Shown here: positions 53,472 to 64,000 of the stretch, piece after piece
Numbering within the stretch: the stretch's first letter is position 1
Layout of the letters: every line of letters starts with the position of its first letter
NCBI GenBank assembly: GCA_023248635.1
Contig: JAHFED010000028.1
Coordinates: 1-64,000, forward strand
Reading direction: 5' to 3'
Origin: Myxococcales bacterium
GTDB taxonomy: Bacteria; Myxococcota; UBA727; VGSZ01
Length of the DNA: 64,000 nucleotides
The notes under the pieces: generated by a model
Told to the model about the DNA's origin: nothing
The model's input: the letters and a program-made list of their open reading frames with translations, nothing else
Database searches by the model: none
Translations under genes and position numbers: made by a program

Positions 53472-55508
53472 ATGGCCACCAAGAAGAAGAGCGCCGAGCT
53501 CGAGACGACGCCGGCGGAGCGCAGGCAGCCCAAGCAGCGAGAGATCGCGGTCAGCGAGTTTTTCTCCAAGAACCGCCACCTGCTCGGCTTCGATTCGCCG
53601 CAGAAGGCGTTGCTGACGGCAGTGCGCGAGGCCGTCGACAACGCTCTGGACGCCTGTGAGGAGGCCCGCATTTTTCCCGACGTCACCGTCGAGATCACCG
53701 AGATCGAAGCCGCGCCGGTGGCCCAGGGTCCGACCCGCTATCGAGTGCGCATCGAGGACAACGGACCCGGCATTCCCGAACCCGAGATGGGCAAGATCTT
53801 CGCGAAGCTGCTGTACGGCTCGAAGTTCCACCGCCTCAAGCAGTCGCGCGGCCAACAGGGCATCGGCATCTCCGCAGCCGTGATGTACGGACAAATGACC
53901 ACTGGCGAACCGGCGCTGGTGGTTTCCAAGATGCAAGGTGCGCGCGCCAATCGGGTTCGACTTTTTATCGATACGGCGAAGAACGAACCCAAGATAGAGC
54001 ACACTGACGTCGACGACAGTGACTGGTGGAAGCAGAAGGCTTCCGGCACCTCCATCGAGATTTTATTGGTGGGCCAGTATAAGGCAGGTCGTCACGGCGT
54101 AGAGGCCTATTTAAAGCAAACTGGTCTGGCCAATCCGCACGCGCGCATTCTCTTTCGCTTTCACAAGGCGGCCACCAAATCGCAGCCCGCGGGGAGCAGC
54201 GAGACCGTCGACATGCCCCGCGTGGTGCATGAGCTGCCCAAGGAGCCCATCGAAATCAAGCCGCACCCCCACGGGGTCGAGCTCGGCACCCTGCAGCGCC
54301 TGCTCGAGGACGCCGGCAAGCAGCACGTCGTCACCTTTCTGTCGACGAGCTTCTCGCGTGTGTCCGCGGCCCAAGCGGCCGAGATCGTGACCAACGGCGG
54401 GCTCAAGCCCACGCGGCCCTGCTCATCGCTGACGCGCCCCGAAGTCGAACAACTCTATAAGGCACTGCAAGCCCAGAAGCTGATGGCGCCGCCGACGTCG
54501 TGCTTGTCGCCCATCGGTGAGCCGGCCTTGATCAAGGGCCTCTATGCCCTCTTCGGCGATCGCAAGAACCTGCAAGACGACGACGACCTCGATCACCTCA
54601 CCCCCGACAAACCCGCGGGGACAAAGACCCTGCTTTCCAATGAGCAACGTGAACAGGCCGACGCCGGCTCTCTCTCTCAGGCCGCCGAACAAGCTGCGGC
54701 CCTCGAGGCCAGCAAGAAGAAGACGAAGAAGCCGGGCAAGACTCCGCCCGATGATGATCAACTGGGCCTCTTTCAGAGCCGCTCGGGCGGGACGACGACG
54801 ACGACGACGTCGTCTTTGCCGCCGCAGTCCATCGATGTTCCCCAGCCGGCCGAGAGGGCCCGCATTGAAAAAGACGAAGAGGGCGCCGACGTCCTCGTGC
54901 TGGGCGAGAACGTCTTTGTGACCGCAGTGACCCGACCGCCGGCCATCTACCGGGGCAATCCCTTTCAGGTCGAGTGTGGAATTCTCTACAGTAAAGATCT
55001 CAAAGCCGACGAATTAGCTAAGGTTTTCCGCTTCGCCAACCGGGTGCCTTTGCTCTATCAGGCATCGGCCTGTGCCATGATGAAGGCGGTGGTGTCCGCG
55101 CCGTGGCGGTCCTACGAGGTGCAGCAGAGCAAGGGCGCACCACCCACCGGACCTCTTGTGCTGCTGGTGCACATCGCCTCGGCCTGGGTTCCCTACACTT
55201 CAGAGTCCAAGGAAGCCATCGCTCACTATCCAGAGGTGCTCAAAGAAATGCGACTGGCGGTCATGGAGGCCGGCCGACGTCTGCAACGCTTCTTGCGTCG
55301 TCGTCGTCGTGAGGTCGATGAGCTGAAGAAGCGCGACTACATGACCAAGTACCTCGACACCATCGGCGAGGCGTTGCAGGACATCCTCGGTCTCTCCGCC
55401 GCCGATCGCGACCGGACCACGGAGAGCCTGAAGCTGGTGCTCGAAAAATCGCGCACCCAAGCCATCAACGACGAGGAGCGGGGCCGCAAGCGCAAGGGCG
55501 CGGCTTGA
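53472..55508 (+). CDS. top6B: DNA topoisomerase VI subunit B
   Basis: The protein has 678 residues. GHKL ATPase motifs are complete: N-box with Glu53/Asn57 in REAVDNALDACEEA, G1 as EDNGPGIPEPEMG near 95, and G2 as SRGQQGIGISAAVMYGQMTT near 125. A helix-two-turn-helix part (about 290-360) and the transducer domain with PPAIYRGNPFQVECGILYSK and VPLLYQASACAMMKAV follow. A Lys/Ala/Thr-rich insert (about 385-470, containing KKKTKKPGKTPPDDD) sits between them. With Top6A it makes a type IIB topoisomerase that relaxes supercoils by double-strand passage. Top6A is normally adjacent but is not found here; the next gene is a small lipoprotein. The function may depend on a distant Top6A. Confidence 0.95.
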   Translation: MATKKKSAELETTPAERRQPKQREIAVSEFFSKNRHLLGFDSPQKALLTAVREAVDNALDACEEARIFPDVTVEITEIEAAPVAQGPTRYRVRIEDNGPGIPEPEMGKIFAKLLYGSKFHRLKQSRGQQGIGISAAVMYGQMTTGEPALVVSKMQGARANRVRLFIDTAKNEPKIEHTDVDDSDWWKQKASGTSIEILLVGQYKAGRHGVEAYLKQTGLANPHARILFRFHKAATKSQPAGSSETVDMPRVVHELPKEPIEIKPHPHGVELGTLQRLLEDAGKQHVVTFLSTSFSRVSAAQAAEIVTNGGLKPTRPCSSLTRPEVEQLYKALQAQKLMAPPTSCLSPIGEPALIKGLYALFGDRKNLQDDDDLDHLTPDKPAGTKTLLSNEQREQADAGSLSQAAEQAAALEASKKKTKKPGKTPPDDDQLGLFQSRSGGTTTTTTSSLPPQSIDVPQPAERARIEKDEEGADVLVLGENVFVTAVTRPPAIYRGNPFQVECGILYSKDLKADELAKVFRFANRVPLLYQASACAMMKAVVSAPWRSYEVQQSKGAPPTGPLVLLVHIASAWVPYTSESKEAIAHYPEVLKEMRLAVMEAGRRLQRFLRRRRREVDELKKRDYMTKYLDTIGEALQDILGLSAADRDRTTESLKLVLEKSRTQAINDEERGRKRKGAA

Positions 55509-58323: not shown

Positions 58324-59526
58324 ATGTCGTCAGGCCCCCGCGCCACCGTTCTTCTCGTCTGGCTGGCGGCGACGTTCTCGTCGGTTGCACAAGCGCACGG
58401 CGCCGCGCCCATGCCCGATGCAACGACGGCGCCCGCCGAGCTGGTGCTCGGTGAGCGAGCCGACAGCGTCTTCCATGCGGTGGCAACAGCGCAGCTCGGC
58501 GATGAGACGGAAGTGGAAGTGCAGCTCACCCGCCACCTGGAGCCGGCAGATCCACTCCTCGGTGACGAAGCTCCTGTCGCCGACGCCGCAGTCACCATTT
58601 CGATCGACAGTGCGGCTGGCGCCGTCTTCGCGGGGCCGACCACGGCCCACCTGGAGGGCGAAGCGGGGCGCTATGGCGTCCACTTTCCGCGGCTGCCAGC
58701 CGGCAGCTACGTCATCAGGGTCGAGACTCAACGGCCGGAAGGCCCGCCGTTCGCTGCGACCTTTGCGCTCGCCCTTGCAGCAGCCGCCGCGATCCCATCG
58801 TCGGCGCCGATGAGCGGTGAGCATGAGATGACGGGCCACCATGCGATGGCCCATCCATTTCTGTCGCACATGGGCATCCCCGATGGTCCTGGTGAGATCA
58901 GCACCCGCATCACCGGCATCCGGCGTGACAGCGGTGCCGTCGCTGGCAACGACGTCGGCGTCCACATCGAAGCGGGCATCATCGAGGGGCTCGGGTTGCA
59001 TCTGCGCAACGACGCCATCACCGGCGACGGAATGGCCGACGACGAAGACCACGGCACCGAGCTGATGGTGATGTACGCGCCTCTCAAAGACGCCGAGAAC
59101 ACGATGGGCCTCTCCATCTTCGGGGAGGTCGCGGTCCCCACCCGCGGCAAGAACCTTCCGCCGCAGGCACCTTTTGTGGCCACCCTTCCGGTGAACTTCG
59201 GCGTCGGCGTCGGCGGCCGGTACATGTGGTCGACCTATCTCCTCGTCGACGCGATCGTCCATGTGGCCCCGACGGATCTCTACGACGGCGTGATGGCTGA
59301 ATACGAAGGCTCGCTGCAGGTGCGGCCCGTCGGCCGACTCTTCTTGATGCTCGAGACGTCGGGCGAGGTGATGTCCGAAGGCATCGAGAACAACGTGCTG
59401 CCGGCGGTGAAGCTTGGTCTAGGCAAGACGGGTCCCATCATCGGCGTCGGCGTCTCCTTCGCAACAACGGTCGCGCGACACTACGACCGCCAGCTGCTCG
59501 TTCAGCTCGATTGGGCGTTCGAATGA
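58324..59526 (+). CDS. Exported Met/His-rich protein with YtkA-like domain and beta-barrel
   Basis: The protein has 400 residues. ATG at 58324 follows GAGGTGACTTCA. The signal peptide is ATVLLVWLAATFSSVAQA. Residues about 35-155 are an immunoglobulin-like domain (EVQLTRHLEPADPLLGDEAP, YGVHFPRLPAGSYVIRVETQ), similar to YtkA/FixH-type modules. A Met/His-rich linker, MSGEHEMTGHHAMAHPFLSH, follows and could bind copper or other metal. The remaining 220 residues are amphipathic strands ending in LLVQLDWAFE, with aromatic C-terminus, so an outer-membrane barrel is likely. It is the first gene of a six-gene unit with a multicopper oxidase; its stop overlaps the next start (ATGA). The function is not known. 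Confidence 0.7.
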   Translation: MSSGPRATVLLVWLAATFSSVAQAHGAAPMPDATTAPAELVLGERADSVFHAVATAQLGDETEVEVQLTRHLEPADPLLGDEAPVADAAVTISIDSAAGAVFAGPTTAHLEGEAGRYGVHFPRLPAGSYVIRVETQRPEGPPFAATFALALAAAAAIPSSAPMSGEHEMTGHHAMAHPFLSHMGIPDGPGEISTRITGIRRDSGAVAGNDVGVHIEAGIIEGLGLHLRNDAITGDGMADDEDHGTELMVMYAPLKDAENTMGLSIFGEVAVPTRGKNLPPQAPFVATLPVNFGVGVGGRYMWSTYLLVDAIVHVAPTDLYDGVMAEYEGSLQVRPVGRLFLMLETSGEVMSEGIENNVLPAVKLGLGKTGPIIGVGVSFATTVARHYDRQLLVQLDWAFE

Positions 59527-60194
59527 TCCAGGGATCGTTCACATTGCTGCTGTCGTCGTTGGCGAGCGCGCAACCCAATGGCGGCGGCCTCAACTTCGAC
59601 GCCGTCGACACCGGTCCCGTTGTTGCTGCCGCCCATGCCGGTGACGCCACCAGCGTCATCGCCGCCGTCGTCGTCATCGTCGTCTTGCTTGGCTTGGTCG
59701 GCGTCGCAGGCTGGTCGGGGCGACAGGCCCAGCGCCCGGCCGTGCTTGATCTTGCGCGGGCACCGGTACCAGCCAAGCTCGCCACCATTGGCGTGCTGAC
59801 GATCTTTGCGCTGACCCACGCTCTGGGCGCAGCCGCCGTCTATCTCAACACCCGGGAGCTCTATCCGACAGCAACCGAGTACTTCTTCTACTTGAAGCCA
59901 GCGCGCCTCGCGTCGTTGTCCCACGCGCACTTGATGGCCATCGCGACGATGGATGGGATCGTCGCCGCCCTCTACACGCTCGGCCAGCGCGACGGAGTCG
60001 TCACCCGCGCCGTCGTCGTCGCCGCTTTTTTGGGCGTCACCAGCGACATCGCATCGTGGTGGCTCACCAAATACGCTGGCGGCGGCTTCGAGACGCTGTC
60101 GATGGTGAGCGGGGTGCTGTTCTCGGCAGCCTTCCTCGTCATGTCGGGTTCGGTGCTGTGGTGTATGTGGCGACCGGCGCGAGGCAAGTCATGA
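59523..60194 (+). CDS. Integral membrane protein of the redox operon
   Basis: The protein has 223 residues. A cleavable or anchored N-terminus is followed by helices at about 43-66 (VIAAVVVIVVLLGLVGVAG), 84-108 (LATIGVLTIFALTHALGAAA), 132-152, 160-180 and 190-212. Histidines lie inside or near helices (LTHALG, LSHAHLMAIATMDG) and could ligate haem or metal. Signals of a known family are lacking. The start overlaps the preceding stop by ATGA and its stop overlaps the next start by ATGA, so the three proteins are probably made in fixed ratio. It may carry electrons or metal through the inner membrane; this is inference from context. Confidence 0.7.
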   Translation: MIQGSFTLLLSSLASAQPNGGGLNFDAVDTGPVVAAAHAGDATSVIAAVVVIVVLLGLVGVAGWSGRQAQRPAVLDLARAPVPAKLATIGVLTIFALTHALGAAAVYLNTRELYPTATEYFFYLKPARLASLSHAHLMAIATMDGIVAALYTLGQRDGVVTRAVVVAAFLGVTSDIASWWLTKYAGGGFETLSMVSGVLFSAAFLVMSGSVLWCMWRPARGKS

Positions 60195-61516
60195 GCTTGC
60201 TCTTCGTCGTCGCCCTCACGCTGGCGGGCGCGCAGCCCGAACGGGCTCCTTACCTGCAGCCCTACTACCGCCCGGGCCTGTTGATGCAGCTGTTGGCGCA
60301 AGAACCCGAGCCCGCGCCCATCGTCCAGACACCCGATGCTGACGCGCTGCCGCTGCCGCCGTCGCCCCCGTCAGCCGAAGCTGAACCCGCCGGTCCACCG
60401 CCGTTGCCATCGCCGCCGCCGTCACCGGATGCGGGGTTGAATCTGGAAGCACCACAGCTGGGACCACCGCCATCGTCCAGCGGCGCTGCGGGCCTCGGCA
60501 TCGGGCCGCTCACGAACCTCGTCTTCGGCGGCACCATCGACCTTCGCTACATGTCCTCAAACGATGAGCCCGTCGGCATGGGCGTCATTCATGTGGCCGA
60601 GCTGTTTGCGACCACCAACGTCGGCGACTACCTCGCGCTACTCGTCGAACAGGTGTTGGTGACCAGCGATCTGTCGTCGTCGGTGGGGCAGGATCACGGC
60701 TTCGTCTACGTCACCATCGCGAATTTGCCGGTGCTGCCCGAGGGCACGGCCTTTCGAATCGGACGCTTCCGTCTGAAGTACGGCATCGACGCGAAGCTCG
60801 ACGCACCCGCCAATCCTTTGCGGCCTCCCGCGTACCGCACGCTGGGCCTCCTCTCGGATCGGGCGCTCGAGGTCTCGGGCTTCTTCGGCCCCGTCGACTA
60901 CGTTGTCGCGGTTGCCCTCGGACCAGACACGCTCTGGAAGGACGTCGTCGGCCCCAACGGCGCCGTCGTTGGTCAGTTGCAAACGGACGCGCTCAACACA
61001 TCACGACCAGTGTTGGGCAGAGTCGGCTTCGACATCGGCAGCGGTTGGCCCGCGTTTGGGCTCTCAGGCTATTTCGGAAAGAACTATGAGGTCGATGCCA
61101 TCGATGGATGGCAGAGCGGTGAGTTGATGAACTTCGGCGGCGCCCTCGACCTCAGTCGACTCGTCCTGAAGGAACGCGGTTCACTCGACGCGAGTTGGCA
61201 GGTTTGGCGACTGAAGATCGCCGCCGAATACACCCTGGGCCATGACGGCTTGGCGGCGACGGGTCCGTGGCTGCAGGCCGTCTTCGCGCGCACCGACATC
61301 AGCATCCTCCCGGAGTTGCTTACCGTGCAGCTGCAATACGACCGCCTCCACGATGGCAAGGTCGGATCGTCCGACGTCGGCGCCGCCGGTCTCGGCGTGA
61401 AATGGAACCTCAACGATTCATCGTGGATGAGGGCGTTCGTTCAGGGAAATGAGCGGCTCGTGATCGGCGAACCATCGGCATGGATGGCCGGCGCGCAGCT
61501 GCTGATCGCTTTTTAA
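60191..61516 (+). CDS. Porin-like outer-membrane protein of the redox operon
   Basis: The protein has 441 residues. A short signal peptide (LLFVVALTLAGA) is followed by a Pro/Ala-rich linker (about 40-100, with PPLPSPPPSPD). The rest is a beta-barrel sequence with repeated strand patterns (GTIDLRYMSSNDEPVGMGVI, FRIGRFRLKYGIDAKLDAPA, GRVGFDIGSGWPAFGLSGYF, LLTVQLQYDRLHDG). It ends in AQLLIAF, with C-terminal Phe as expected for BAM-dependent assembly. Barrel porins of this type are often encoded beside extracellular or periplasmic redox proteins. The ATGA overlaps at its 5' end, and the next gene begins 10 bp later behind a strong AAGGAGG. Confidence 0.75.
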   Translation: MSLLFVVALTLAGAQPERAPYLQPYYRPGLLMQLLAQEPEPAPIVQTPDADALPLPPSPPSAEAEPAGPPPLPSPPPSPDAGLNLEAPQLGPPPSSSGAAGLGIGPLTNLVFGGTIDLRYMSSNDEPVGMGVIHVAELFATTNVGDYLALLVEQVLVTSDLSSSVGQDHGFVYVTIANLPVLPEGTAFRIGRFRLKYGIDAKLDAPANPLRPPAYRTLGLLSDRALEVSGFFGPVDYVVAVALGPDTLWKDVVGPNGAVVGQLQTDALNTSRPVLGRVGFDIGSGWPAFGLSGYFGKNYEVDAIDGWQSGELMNFGGALDLSRLVLKERGSLDASWQVWRLKIAAEYTLGHDGLAATGPWLQAVFARTDISILPELLTVQLQYDRLHDGKVGSSDVGAAGLGVKWNLNDSSWMRAFVQGNERLVIGEPSAWMAGAQLLIAF

Positions 61517-61526
61517 GGAGGCTGAG

Positions 61527-62084
61527 ATGCGCGCTTTGACGGTGGTCGCTGCAACGGTGTTTTTACTCGTGGCCACGACAGCGACTGCCCACGATCGAAC
61601 CTGGCCCGGGAAGAAGCTCGGCAAGGCGTTGCCTCAAGCGAAGAGCTTCGTGCAACGCGTTGCGAGCCTCGGCCCCGCGCAAGTGGCCTGGGTCGAGACG
61701 GCCCTCGGCGAGCCCATCCGCAGCGAGGACAAAGCGCCCACCTTCTACGTCGGTACCGGCGCAGACGGCCGCAGCGTCGGTGTCGTCGTCTTCGTCGACG
61801 CCACCGGCGACAACGGCAAGATCGAGATCGGGGTGGCGCTCGATCCGGCCGGTCGCCTCGTCAACGTCGTGCTGTACGAGCACAGCGAGCGCGGCGTCGA
61901 CGATCGCGCCTTTCTCGATCAACTCACCGGCAAAACAGCGGCCAGCAAGCTCAAGGTCGGTGACGACATCCAGGCCAATGACGACAGCAAACACGCCGCC
62001 CAGGCCATCGCCAGCGCCGCGAAGCGTGGTGCCCTCTTGGCCATGGCCGCTCTCGGTCTCGGTCAGAAGGCAGGAACGCCATGA
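61527..62084 (+). CDS. Exported FMN_bind-like protein
   Basis: The protein has 185 residues behind a strong ribosome site (AAGGAGGCTGAG). The signal peptide is VVAATVFLLVATTATA. The mature part contains DKAPTFYVGTGADGRSVGVV, VALDPAGRLVNVVLYEHSER, FLDQLTGKTAASKLKVGDDI and AAQAIASAAKRGALLA. This series of strand-strand-FLxQ-GK-VGxD-AxxIA follows the FMN_bind (NqrC/RnfG) pattern. The usual S/T-G-A-T motif that carries covalent FMN is not found; the matching place reads QANDDSKHAAQ. It is a paralogue of the C-terminal half of the next gene. The stop overlaps the next start by ATGA. FMN binding is uncertain. Confidence 0.65.
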   Translation: MRALTVVAATVFLLVATTATAHDRTWPGKKLGKALPQAKSFVQRVASLGPAQVAWVETALGEPIRSEDKAPTFYVGTGADGRSVGVVVFVDATGDNGKIEIGVALDPAGRLVNVVLYEHSERGVDDRAFLDQLTGKTAASKLKVGDDIQANDDSKHAAQAIASAAKRGALLAMAALGLGQKAGTP

Positions 62085-62896
62085 AATCCGTCGCGATCGT
62101 CGCCGTCGTCGTCGCTGCCGTCGTCGCATTCGTCGCTGCGCCCAACGCCAACGCGCTGCCGGCCTACAGCCGCTTGTACAGTCAGCGCTACGGCTATCGC
62201 CCCAGCTGCGCGGCCTGTCACGAAAATGGCGGGGGCTCCGCGGTCACCGATTTCGGCCGAGACTTCTTGAGAGCAGGTGCGAACAGCCAGGCGTTCGCAC
62301 GTCTTGAGCCCAAGGACTCCGACGCAGACGGCGTCCTCAACGCCGACGAAGTGAAGGCCAAGAGCAACCCTGGCGACGCGCGCAGCAAGCCCGGCGCGAC
62401 GGGTGATTGGCTCGCCGACGCCGCGCAGACGCCGGTTCCTCGGGGGTTCCTGACGAAGCTCTTCCCTGATGCCGAAGGATTTTCGGCGCTTGAAGGTGCG
62501 CTGAGCGCGGACCAATTGGCGCGCGTGAAGGGCATCGTCGGCGTCGATCTGGGGGAAGCGGACAAGCTGCCGACCTTCTACTTTGCGCTGAAGGGCGGCA
62601 AGAAATTCGCGGTCGTACAGTACGTCGCGGCCGCTTCCATTGCAGGGCCGATCTCAATTGCGGTCGCGATGAACACGAACGCCACCGTGACGGCGGTGAA
62701 GGTCCTGAAGAACCCGTCGGCGAAGGCGATTGAGGCTGGCGCGTTTCTCTCACAATTCGCTGGCAAGCGCGCCGTCGATGCCCTGGAGGTCGGCAACGAC
62801 GTGCAACCCGCAGGCGGCGCCGACGAGGACTCCCGCGCGGTGGCCCTCGCGGTGAAGAAGGCCATCGCTGTGATCAACGTCGTGTTCAGTGGCTAG
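62081..62896 (+). CDS. Monohaem cytochrome c fused to FMN_bind-like domain
   Basis: The protein has 271 residues. Signal peptide IVAVVVAAVVAFVAAPNANA. Near residue 44, PSCAACHENGG gives one CxxCH haem attachment site. A short EF-hand-like Asp-rich loop, KDSDADGVLNADEVKAKSNP, follows near 77. The second half (about 140-271) repeats the fold of the preceding gene: EADKLPTFYFALKGGKKFAV, SQFAGKRAVDALEVGNDVQP and VALAVKKAIAVI. It again lacks a clear covalent FMN motif. A haem and a possible flavin or related carrier in one exported protein suggests electron transfer in the periplasm. It sits directly before the multicopper oxidase gene (43-bp gap). Confidence 0.7.
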   Translation: MKSVAIVAVVVAAVVAFVAAPNANALPAYSRLYSQRYGYRPSCAACHENGGGSAVTDFGRDFLRAGANSQAFARLEPKDSDADGVLNADEVKAKSNPGDARSKPGATGDWLADAAQTPVPRGFLTKLFPDAEGFSALEGALSADQLARVKGIVGVDLGEADKLPTFYFALKGGKKFAVVQYVAAASIAGPISIAVAMNTNATVTAVKVLKNPSAKAIEAGAFLSQFAGKRAVDALEVGNDVQPAGGADEDSRAVALAVKKAIAVINVVFSG

Positions 62897-62939
62897 CCAG
62901 CGGCTGCGTCGCAGCGAGTCAGAATTCACGGGAGTCGTC

Positions 62940-64000
62940 ATGAAAGCAATCGCCGTCGGCCTCGCCATCTCTTGCACCGCCTGTGTCGTCGAGCCACCGG
63001 TCGATGAGCGCGATTGGGCGCTGTCGCCCGCTGAAGACCTCGACCCCGACCCCAACGTCGTCGAGGTCGATATCGTCGCCGCCGCCACGGATGTCGAAGT
63101 GCTCCCAGGACACCTCACACGCATGTGGACCTTCAACGGACACTTTCCCGGTCCGCTCATCACGGCCAAGGTCGGCGACCGCGTCGTCGTGCACGTGAAG
63201 AACGCGCTCGACGAGGGCACCACCGTGCACTGGCATGGCCTCCGCGTGCCCGCTGCGATGGCTGGCGTGCCCGCCATGCAAGAGCCCATCGCGCCCGGCA
63301 GCAGCTTCACCTACGACTTCGTCGTCAAAGACGCGTTGCTGGCTTGGTACCACCCGCATCTGCGCTCCGAGGTGCAGGTCGAGCGCGGTCTGCAGGCGCC
63401 GTTTGTGGTGCGCGGCCAAGACGCGCGCGCGTTCGGCCGCGAGACGATCGTCGTCATCGACGACATCCTCCTCGACGACGACGGCGACGTCGCCCCGTTC
63501 GATGCCAGCCACATGGGCGAGATGCAGGGGCGTTTGGGCAACACCATCCTCGTCAACGGCCATCGACGGCCAGTGCTCGACGTGCGCCGCGGCGAACCGC
63601 AGGTACTGCGCCTCGTGAACAGCGCGAACGCCCGCACGATGCTGTTGCGGCTCCCCGACCACCAGCTCACCTGGCTCGCGAGCGACGGCGGCCCGCTGGA
63701 GGAGCCCCGCGACGTCGATGCGCTGTCGTTGGCGCCCGGCGAACGCGCCGACGTTCGCTTCGTCGTCGACGACGCTGTCGGCTCGACCCTCGACTTCGAA
63801 GTCGCGCCGGCGAAGGACGGCATGATGAGCGGCGGGATGACGAGCGGCGCGATGGCCTGGCACGGCGACGTTGGCGGCGACGGCAGCACCCGCCGCGCGC
63901 TACAGCTCCGCGTCATCGCCGGTGCCGCTGGCGCCTTCGACGATGTGCCGGCTCACCTCGGTGACGTGCCCGTGCTCGGCACCTCCGACGTTGTCCGCAC
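62940..64000 (+). CDS. Multicopper oxidase, partial (cut by window end)
   Basis: At least 353 residues are encoded; the frame is open to the window edge and the C-terminus is missing. ATG at 62940 follows CACGGGAGTCGTC. The N-terminus (AVGLAISCTACVVEPP) looks like a lipoprotein signal. First copper motifs are present: TTVHWHGLRVPAAMAGVPAM (HxHG) and LLAWYHPHLRSEVQVERGL (HPH), as in the type 2/type 3 centres of CopA/CueO-like oxidases. A Met-rich stretch, GMMSGGMTSGAMAWHGD, resembles the copper-sensing insert of CueO. The type 1 copper ligands would lie beyond the edge. It would oxidise Cu(I), another metal or an organic donor with oxygen as acceptor, perhaps with the cytochrome as partner. 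Confidence 0.88.
   Translation, partial: MKAIAVGLAISCTACVVEPPVDERDWALSPAEDLDPDPNVVEVDIVAAATDVEVLPGHLTRMWTFNGHFPGPLITAKVGDRVVVHVKNALDEGTTVHWHGLRVPAAMAGVPAMQEPIAPGSSFTYDFVVKDALLAWYHPHLRSEVQVERGLQAPFVVRGQDARAFGRETIVVIDDILLDDDGDVAPFDASHMGEMQGRLGNTILVNGHRRPVLDVRRGEPQVLRLVNSANARTMLLRLPDHQLTWLASDGGPLEEPRDVDALSLAPGERADVRFVVDDAVGSTLDFEVAPAKDGMMSGGMTSGAMAWHGDVGGDGSTRRALQLRVIAGAAGAFDDVPAHLGDVPVLGTSDVVR

Follow-up and report, generated by a model that had tools for sequence, protein, structure and literature searches.

A putative copper-handling envelope operon with site-less FMN_bind-like proteins beside a CusCBA-type pump in a Myxococcales bacterium

In Escherichia coli, the cus gene order places cusF between cusC and cusB, and CusF is a small OB-fold barrel. 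Other described systems also bear on the locus reported here. CrdA of Helicobacter pylori is periplasmic and works with a CzcBA-type pump (PMC12319023); it binds copper and carries the Met motif MMxEMPGMxxMxEM (PMC9182242). In P19 clusters, the redox partner is a thioredoxin, an FMN-binding protein, or a cytochrome (PMC6083913), and partners of this kind also appear in PMC8238504, which gives [S/T]GA[S/T] as the attachment motif for flavinylation. Here we describe six genes, for which the names bar, mem, por, fmnA, cytF, and mco were coined in this analysis, from a Myxococcales bacterium. They lie at the end of the window, the 64,000-base stretch that was analysed (bases 1-64000 of the 74,620-base contig JAHFED010000028.1, whose downstream part was also read). 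The operon is probably a periplasmic or envelope copper-handling module that works with the neighboring CusCBA-type pump, most likely in detoxification; we put the probability of this reading at roughly 0.6. The copper assignment rests on genomic context and fold.

All six genes are co-directional on the + strand and tightly packed between 58324 and 64376, in agreement with a first-pass annotation of the window that had described six overlapping or closely spaced genes. Four-base overlaps occur at three junctions (bar/mem, mem/por, and fmnA/cytF), while por and fmnA are 10 bases apart and cytF and mco 43. The features are listed below; labels beginning with L denote stretches read around homologues in other genomes or contigs, and "site-less" means lacking the flavinylation site.

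bar, 58324-59526, + strand: secreted; N-terminal YtkA/P19-like domain (barN), Met/His-rich linker, and C-terminal part, perhaps barrel-like
barN domain of bar, 58393-58794, + strand: homologous to the CusB-type adaptor N termini of L119/L121; FetP/P19- and CrdA-like fold
Met/His-rich linker of bar, HEMTGHHAMAHPFLSHMG, 58795-58900, + strand: recognised in the sequence
mem, 59523-60194, + strand: small multi-helix membrane protein with an H-x-H-L motif, of a family found beside FMN_bind genes
H-A-H-L motif of mem, 59922-59933, + strand: H-x-H-L, invariant in 8 aligned sequences
por, 60191-61516, + strand: secreted; porin-like by eye, C-terminal ...LLIAF; without family match
fmnA, 61527-62084, + strand: periplasmic FMN_bind-fold protein without flavinylation site; predicted mature N terminus His (ATA/HDRTW, cleavage at the slash)
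D-D-S-K of fmnA, 61980-61991, + strand: occupies the place of [S/T]GA[S/T] in flavinylated relatives
cytF, 62081-62896, + strand: one haem c motif, a TSP3/EF-hand-like stretch, and an FMN_bind-like domain without flavinylation site
CAACH haem c motif of cytF, 62207-62221, + strand: sequence motif
mco, 62940-64376 (window edge at 64000), + strand: lipoprotein-like multicopper oxidase; HWH, HPH, HPFHLH, and HCH; two Met-rich runs

What lies beyond the window? mco runs 376 bases past its end, and 1.6 kb from the end of the operon, in the downstream sequence, is a convergent CusCBA-type heavy-metal efflux operon. The genes that follow mco are listed here; for CusA, CusB, and CusC the limits are those of the open reading frames (ORFs), with starts unrefined.

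TetR-type regulator, 64636-65274, - strand: downstream of mco
Small membrane protein, ORF 65306-65977, + strand: downstream of the TetR-type regulator
CusA, stop at 66014, - strand: NCBIfam TIGR00914 CusA/CzcA, 1042.7 bits against a cut-off of 701.45
CusB with HMBD metal-binding motif, 69501-71030, - strand: Pfam HlyD_D23 and HMBD
CusC/TolC-type protein, 71006-72517, - strand: Pfam OEP

The locus thus resembles CusCFBA in having CusA-, CusB-, and CusC-type genes next door and differs from it in that the pump and the six-gene operon are convergent. No CusF was noticed among the ORFs printed for the region, where no dedicated CusF search was made. The closest relatives of fmnA and barN also sit in operons for heavy-metal pumps of the resistance-nodulation-division (RND) type, which, together with the adjoining pump, supports the copper system suggested at first pass.

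These relatives came to light when an alignment of cytF, fmnA, and the homologue from a Massilia plasmid was scanned against 84,980 species and four loci (L119-L122) were confirmed. Two of them, L120 and L122, are RNF-like gene sets with acceptor motifs present (by eye). L119, from Acidobacteria bacterium RIFCSPLOWO2_12_FULL_54_10, has a site-less fmnA homologue (36% over 178 aa) ahead of a CusB-type adaptor and a CusA-type pump, as well as a HlyD-type gene (by eye), and the N-terminal domain of the adaptor matches that of bar (34% over 77 aa, E 2.8e-7). In L121, a gene with a barN domain accompanies a CusC-like gene (by eye) and a site-less FMN_bind-like lipoprotein. When 297 genomes of the phylum of L119 were searched with an FMN_bind-like profile, 79 had a match, and the top group of matches was site-less and located in heavy-metal efflux RND (HME-RND) operons. 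L156 and L160 have the order outer-membrane efflux protein, FMN_bind-like protein, barN-CusB, (second adaptor), CusA, and L163 and L170 share the first three genes; the efflux protein was identified by Pfam in L156 and L170 and by eye in L160 and L163. In four loci, the FMN_bind-like gene therefore lies between CusC- and CusB-type genes, the place of cusF in E. coli, although the FMN_bind-like proteins have an RnfG/NqrC fold and CusF is an OB-fold barrel.

How closely is the loss of the flavin site tied to this setting? Only copies in the loci read were classified, and weaker matches among the 79 genomes are outside the counts. The 31 ORFs from 30 loci comprise 13 of the site-less efflux type, 13 with a GAT/GAS-type motif (L146, with GGAT, assigned by eye), and 5 set aside because the motif region differs or falls outside the match (L148 twice, L149, L154, and L155; none has barN beside it). 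With two site-less copies added from other locus readings (L158 and L171), barN-CusB or CusA adjoins 12 of 15 site-less copies, and the misses (L158, L161, and L171) are all at contig ends. No motif-bearing copy has barN within 1.5 kb (0/13). The comparison of 12/13 site-less with 0/13 motif-bearing copies gives P 2.7e-6; for CusA, a range of about 8 kb was searched around 7 of the motif-bearing copies, and the other six were checked for barN within 1.5 kb only. At the level of genomes, barN matched 16 of the 297, 13 of them strongly, the line at E <= 1e-19 having been set after the gap to the next matches (1.7e-13 and weaker) was seen. Strong-barN genomes and genomes with a site-less FMN_bind-like protein number 13 each and share 12. 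Because six genomes had supplied rows to the barN profile, they were removed, leaving 6/7 each way in 291 genomes (P 6e-11). A multicopper oxidase is also present in one such efflux island, L166.

The assignment of fmnA and cytF as two FMN_bind-like proteins holds for the fold of fmnA, as modelled, and less well for sequence: the two score 13.3 and 18.2 bits against FMN_bind (PF04205), both under the Pfam cut-off of 22. The fmnA model, built from four sequences, has a predicted local distance difference test (pLDDT) score of 78.9 and matches the RnfG/NqrC-type fold (9eri_G, Foldseek E 1.4e-5; 8rb9_G, Z 13.6, root mean square deviation [rmsd] 4.3, 144 aligned). In cytF, the FMN_bind match falls in the second half, the N-terminal part matches a dihaem family in part (52 of 300 bits), and there is one CxxCH (CAACH) only, the haem that had been noted in one of the pair. 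The only Met of cytF besides its start is Met197, within the FMN_bind-like domain (L063 has a Met at the aligned place), and there is no second His for the haem's other axial ligand. The [S/T]GA[S/T] acceptor motif is absent from both proteins, the aligned place reading DDSK in fmnA and GGAD in cytF, and it is kept in homologues of the window's phylum, such as L040, L043, and L044. Flavinylated FMN_bind was rejected as an identity for either protein on account of the missing motif.

By eye, a mature N-terminal His is predicted for these site-less secreted proteins: fmnA, L066, L068, L069, L070, L119, L156-L162, and L171. The site-less Massilia protein would have a mature N-terminal Asp instead, and the lipoprotein form (L121, L163-L166, and L170) ends in H-x-H (both by eye). 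Since the His-bearing proteins fall in perhaps three lineages, the N-terminal His is a hint and no proof.

The gene mem was earlier described as a multi-helix protein with His, and it does have four hydrophobic peaks and the H-x-H-L motif. A profile built on the 8 aligned rows (A2) found 28 places in 24 of the 193 genomes of the window's phylum searched. An FMN_bind ORF adjoins or overlaps mem at 23 of the 28; the exceptions are L064, L065, L067, L102, and L104, two of which (L065 and L104) lie at contig ends. The genes upstream in the mem loci are often porin-like (by eye; BBP2 match in one), and the window's own genome has a flavinylated-type counterpart on contig C78 (L052:8326-9434), where an SGAT-bearing FMN_bind gene is beside a mem homologue. 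Clusters of the kind to which mem belongs thus usually include an FMN_bind protein that can be flavinylated, and the window holds a variant whose partners lack the site. mem was not found in the three nearest genomes (G001-G003). It may be a haem b protein, given the invariant H-x-H, but a further His of the motif-type relatives (IVGHLF) is absent from the window's mem.

Could such a cluster carry electrons between the periplasm and the cell surface through haem or flavin and a porin, for example to reduce or oxidize metal outside the cell? A path of this sort across both membranes was proposed in the first-pass annotation. The mem family is mostly tied to acceptor-motif FMN_bind genes, has porin-like neighbors, and has an ApbE gene in two loci (L103 and L115), and FMN_bind proteins do transfer electrons (PMC8238504). 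The fold of fmnA and the company of mem and porin-like genes are likewise shared with ApbE-flavinylated systems. However, the acceptor motif is missing from both window domains, unlike in those systems, the cluster has no ApbE gene (there are three elsewhere in the window's genome), and one haem motif contrasts with a multihaem conduit. The flavin path is for these reasons unsupported, and we consider the electron path decidedly unlikely. A multihaem extracellular electron conduit was itself rejected; MtrCAB-type porin-cytochrome systems differ in that the window has no multihaem cytochrome, cytF has its one CxxCH, and no other c-type haem gene was identified among the six.

The identification of por as a porin-like beta-barrel was not established, as por has no family match in profile searches. 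Nor could "the same porin" be followed to other loci: por and the C-terminal part of bar were compared with the porin-like genes there by phmmer and profile comparison, which gave nothing significant and a best probability of 9.9%, and the idea was dropped. Outside the porin-mem-fmnA loci, the best mem relative is that of L063, which has a homologue of cytF (32.5% over 240 aa) on one side and a cupredoxin-like gene, recognised by a weak Pfam match, on the other. There a four-gene run (L063:6046-8477) encodes a monohaem cytochrome, the cytF homologue, the mem homologue, and the cupredoxin-like protein, and it is the closest relative of the window's middle part. A single-haem (CxxCH) N terminus is fused to a porin-like protein in L065:1873-3066, adjoining a mem homologue, and in L119:14527-15690, adjoining the CusA pump. 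In L068:12338-13672, an HMBD metal-binding motif is joined to a barrel-like protein of 400 residues, and a porin-mem-FMN_bind-like run lies beside it; this fusion was not found in the three sister loci, as far as they were fetched.

The protein encoded by bar had been called a Met/His-rich barrel. The composition stands, with 14 Met, 15 His, and 0 Cys in 400 aa and a mature protein that would start AQA/HGAAPM (cleavage, at the slash, by eye); the barrel is not established, since the C-terminal part has no family match in profile searches and a model with a pLDDT of about 30, which is unusable. barN has no Pfam match at E <= 0.1. Its model, of moderate quality, resembles copper-bound FetP (5i0y_A; Z 10.1, rmsd 3.2, 113 aligned), P19 proteins (among the best structural matches; Z 9-10, rmsd about 3.2), CrdA of H. 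pylori (Z 9.2, rmsd 2.8, 101 aligned), and FtrA. CrdA differs in that its Met motif is absent from barN, and we know of no FMN_bind partner for CrdAB-CzcBA. An identification of barN as CopC was dropped, as there is no Pfam CopC match and CopC is not among the 50 rows of the structural comparison, the latter a result that does not exclude CopC.

The likeness of barN to P19, FetP, and FtrA raises the prospect of iron or manganese chemistry, in which mco would be a ferroxidase or Mn oxidase, and bar, fmnA, and cytF would serve P19-like ferrous-iron uptake. As in P19/FetMP-FtrABCD systems, what may be a P19-like fold is paired with a possible redox partner, there a thioredoxin, FMN-binding protein, or cytochrome (PMC6083913, PMC8238504). 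The differences are that no FTR1-type permease was noticed in the region read, that the window's FMN_bind-like partner has no flavin site, and that its metal pump exports. The adjoining pump is moreover of the CusA/CzcA type with an HMBD adaptor, and mco has CueO-like Met-rich runs. Iron or manganese chemistry is quite improbable on this evidence.

The multicopper oxidase is confirmed by profile: mco matches Cu-oxidase_3 (E 4.4e-33), Cu-oxidase_2, and Cu-oxidase, all above the Pfam cut-offs, and has the copper-ligand motifs HWH, HPH, HPFHLH, and HCH. Its best NCBIfam match is CueO, at 198.6 bits, below the equivalog cut-off of 525, and its nearest solved relatives are Thermus laccase-type oxidases (E 1.6e-59). 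From its sequence, including the two Met-rich runs reminiscent of CueO, mco is a CueO/laccase-like oxidase. Does the operon then belong with PcoABCD/CopABCD? Like them, it combines a multicopper oxidase, an outer-membrane candidate with a Met/His-rich stretch, and a domain with a predicted N-terminal His. Unlike them, it has no Pfam match to CopB, CopC, or CopD among the window genes at E <= 1, and mco scores 170.4 bits with the CopA profile, far under the cut-off of 478.95. A plain Pco/Cop operon was rejected for want of CopB, CopC, and CopD matches.

In the window's own phylum, barN was matched in 38 of 195 genomes. The protein with barN ends in a CxxCH-bearing domain in 13 of the 14 other loci read (L177-L190), and in all 14 the gene beside it matches a cytochrome c plus FMN_bind-like profile at E <= 3.2e-43 (five seed proteins, with four of the 14 loci holding seeds). 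The C-terminal domain of this cytochrome c family aligns with FMN_bind-like alignments at 96-98% probability, compared with 0.1% for unrelated controls. The two-gene unit of a barN protein and a cytochrome c/site-less FMN_bind-like protein is conserved across L177-L190 (e.g., L210:4292-6339 and L211:4555-6492). In the window's own genome, a barN/FMN_bind-like pair on contig C37 (L214:4894-6848) lacks CxxCH altogether, as though each gene had lost its haem. P19/YtkA-like and site-less FMN_bind-like domains thus recur as partners in three settings, namely cytochrome pairs, HME-RND pumps, and the window.

An alternative is copper supply rather than detoxification: an enzyme outside the cytoplasm would receive copper (or haem) from the module, much as the CuA centre does from YtkA/CtaK-type proteins. 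YtkA/CtaK and the YtkA domain of YcnJ support CuA assembly in Bacillus subtilis (PMC13344008). YtkA (PF13115) is the nearest Pfam family of three barN relatives, all below the cut-off (E 1.3e-4 to 8e-3; 17-23 bits against 25.9), and in other genomes cytochrome-fused barN pairs lie beside DsbA-like proteins (by eye). Yet the genes read include neither a terminal oxidase nor a nitrous-oxide reductase, and what lies next door is a metal-efflux pump and a CueO/laccase-like oxidase. We regard supply as unlikely.

How widespread is the operon as a whole? The answer to the conservation check proposed with the first-pass annotation is mixed: the mem/FMN_bind and barN/FMN_bind-like pairs are conserved, whereas the complete six-gene set was seen in no other genome, and any other locus seen has at most two of the six. 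Since the parts recur and the full set was seen only here, the operon is one assembled locally from parts that recur. When cytF alone was scanned against the 84,980 species, there were 80 pattern matches, none confirmed, and hence no close relative elsewhere. The C-terminal part of bar is an orphan: among 195 genomes, the window's own was the only one to have it. Both facts, the unique set and the orphan, would suit unrelated genes adjacent by chance. The genes overlap and are co-directional, however, and their parts pair repeatedly in independent loci, which makes chance adjacency very improbable.

In plasmids, bar had no tblastn match and cytF had one weak match only, on a Massilia putida plasmid from mine tailings (L071; NZ_CP019036.1, 43373-47973). 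There a site-less FMN_bind-like protein stands in a row of genes for an ArsR regulator, a porin-like protein, the site-less protein, a small protein, an FtsX-type permease, an ABC ATPase, and a DsbD N-domain protein. Elsewhere in the window, 53472-55508 encodes what by eye is a protein resembling subunit B of DNA topoisomerase VI, which would be unusual for a bacterium.

Several observations weigh against the copper-handling reading. (i) The bar model, built from three sequences, is confident only at about residues 59-152 (pLDDT about 68-79), and because unrelated Ig-like folds reach Z 8-10 in the same list, the match of barN to P19 and CrdA is a moderate one only. (ii) fmnA has 3 His, 2 Met, and no Cys, so a rich copper site is not obvious in it. 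(iii) A crude scripted rule placed His at +1 in as few as 5 of 25 site-less rows, and in 0 of 41 rows sorted as motif-bearing, among which L068 was counted through a chance GGSS match. (iv) Most mem-linked FMN_bind proteins have a GAT-type acceptor motif, so the usual partner of mem is of the flavinylated type. (v) The barN/FMN_bind-like pair is not exclusive to copper, because the commonest pair in the window's phylum is cytochrome-fused and no pump was noticed in the five such loci read. (vi) Sigma-70 and terminator scans gave nothing better than shuffles.

If the operon does handle copper, how might it work? The metal, its ligands, the direction of its transfer, and the roles of cytF, mem, por, and the C-terminal part of bar are predicted here. 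The N-terminal P19/YtkA/CrdA-like domain of bar, with the Met/His-rich linker, would bind periplasmic copper and pass it on. fmnA, a site-less FMN_bind-fold protein with a predicted N-terminal His, would likewise bind periplasmic copper and pass it on. Together, the two would fill the place held elsewhere by CusF and CopC/PcoC. Like CueO, mco would use O2 to oxidize Cu(I) to Cu(II). cytF, which would combine the fold of fmnA with a single haem c, could serve the P19-like domain as redox partner, the part played in P19 clusters by a thioredoxin, FMN-binding protein, or cytochrome. mem and por may serve the inner- and outer-membrane ends, and the CusCBA pump next door would expel Cu/Ag.

A broader idea, which we offer tentatively and at somewhat less than even odds, is that an unrecognised branch of the FMN_bind fold lost its flavin and became a copper-binding partner (with haem c, a copper-redox partner) of a P19/YtkA-like domain. 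The branch would fill the CusF slot of heavy-metal RND pumps in one phylum, and in the window its partners would be a multicopper oxidase, a version of the branch that carries haem, and a membrane protein that came from clusters of the flavinylated type. Among the papers listed in literature searches, none linked FMN_bind to Cus-type pumps, which is weak evidence of novelty. Because the branch is recognisable by sequence alone, through the missing acceptor motif and the barN neighbor, the idea is directly testable. An FMN_bind annotation is commonly read as flavin electron transfer. If a flavin-free, copper-handling branch exists, many proteins of the Acidobacteriota and the window's phylum would have to be re-annotated, and those heavy-metal RND pumps that have no CusF would have a candidate for their periplasmic metal carrier.

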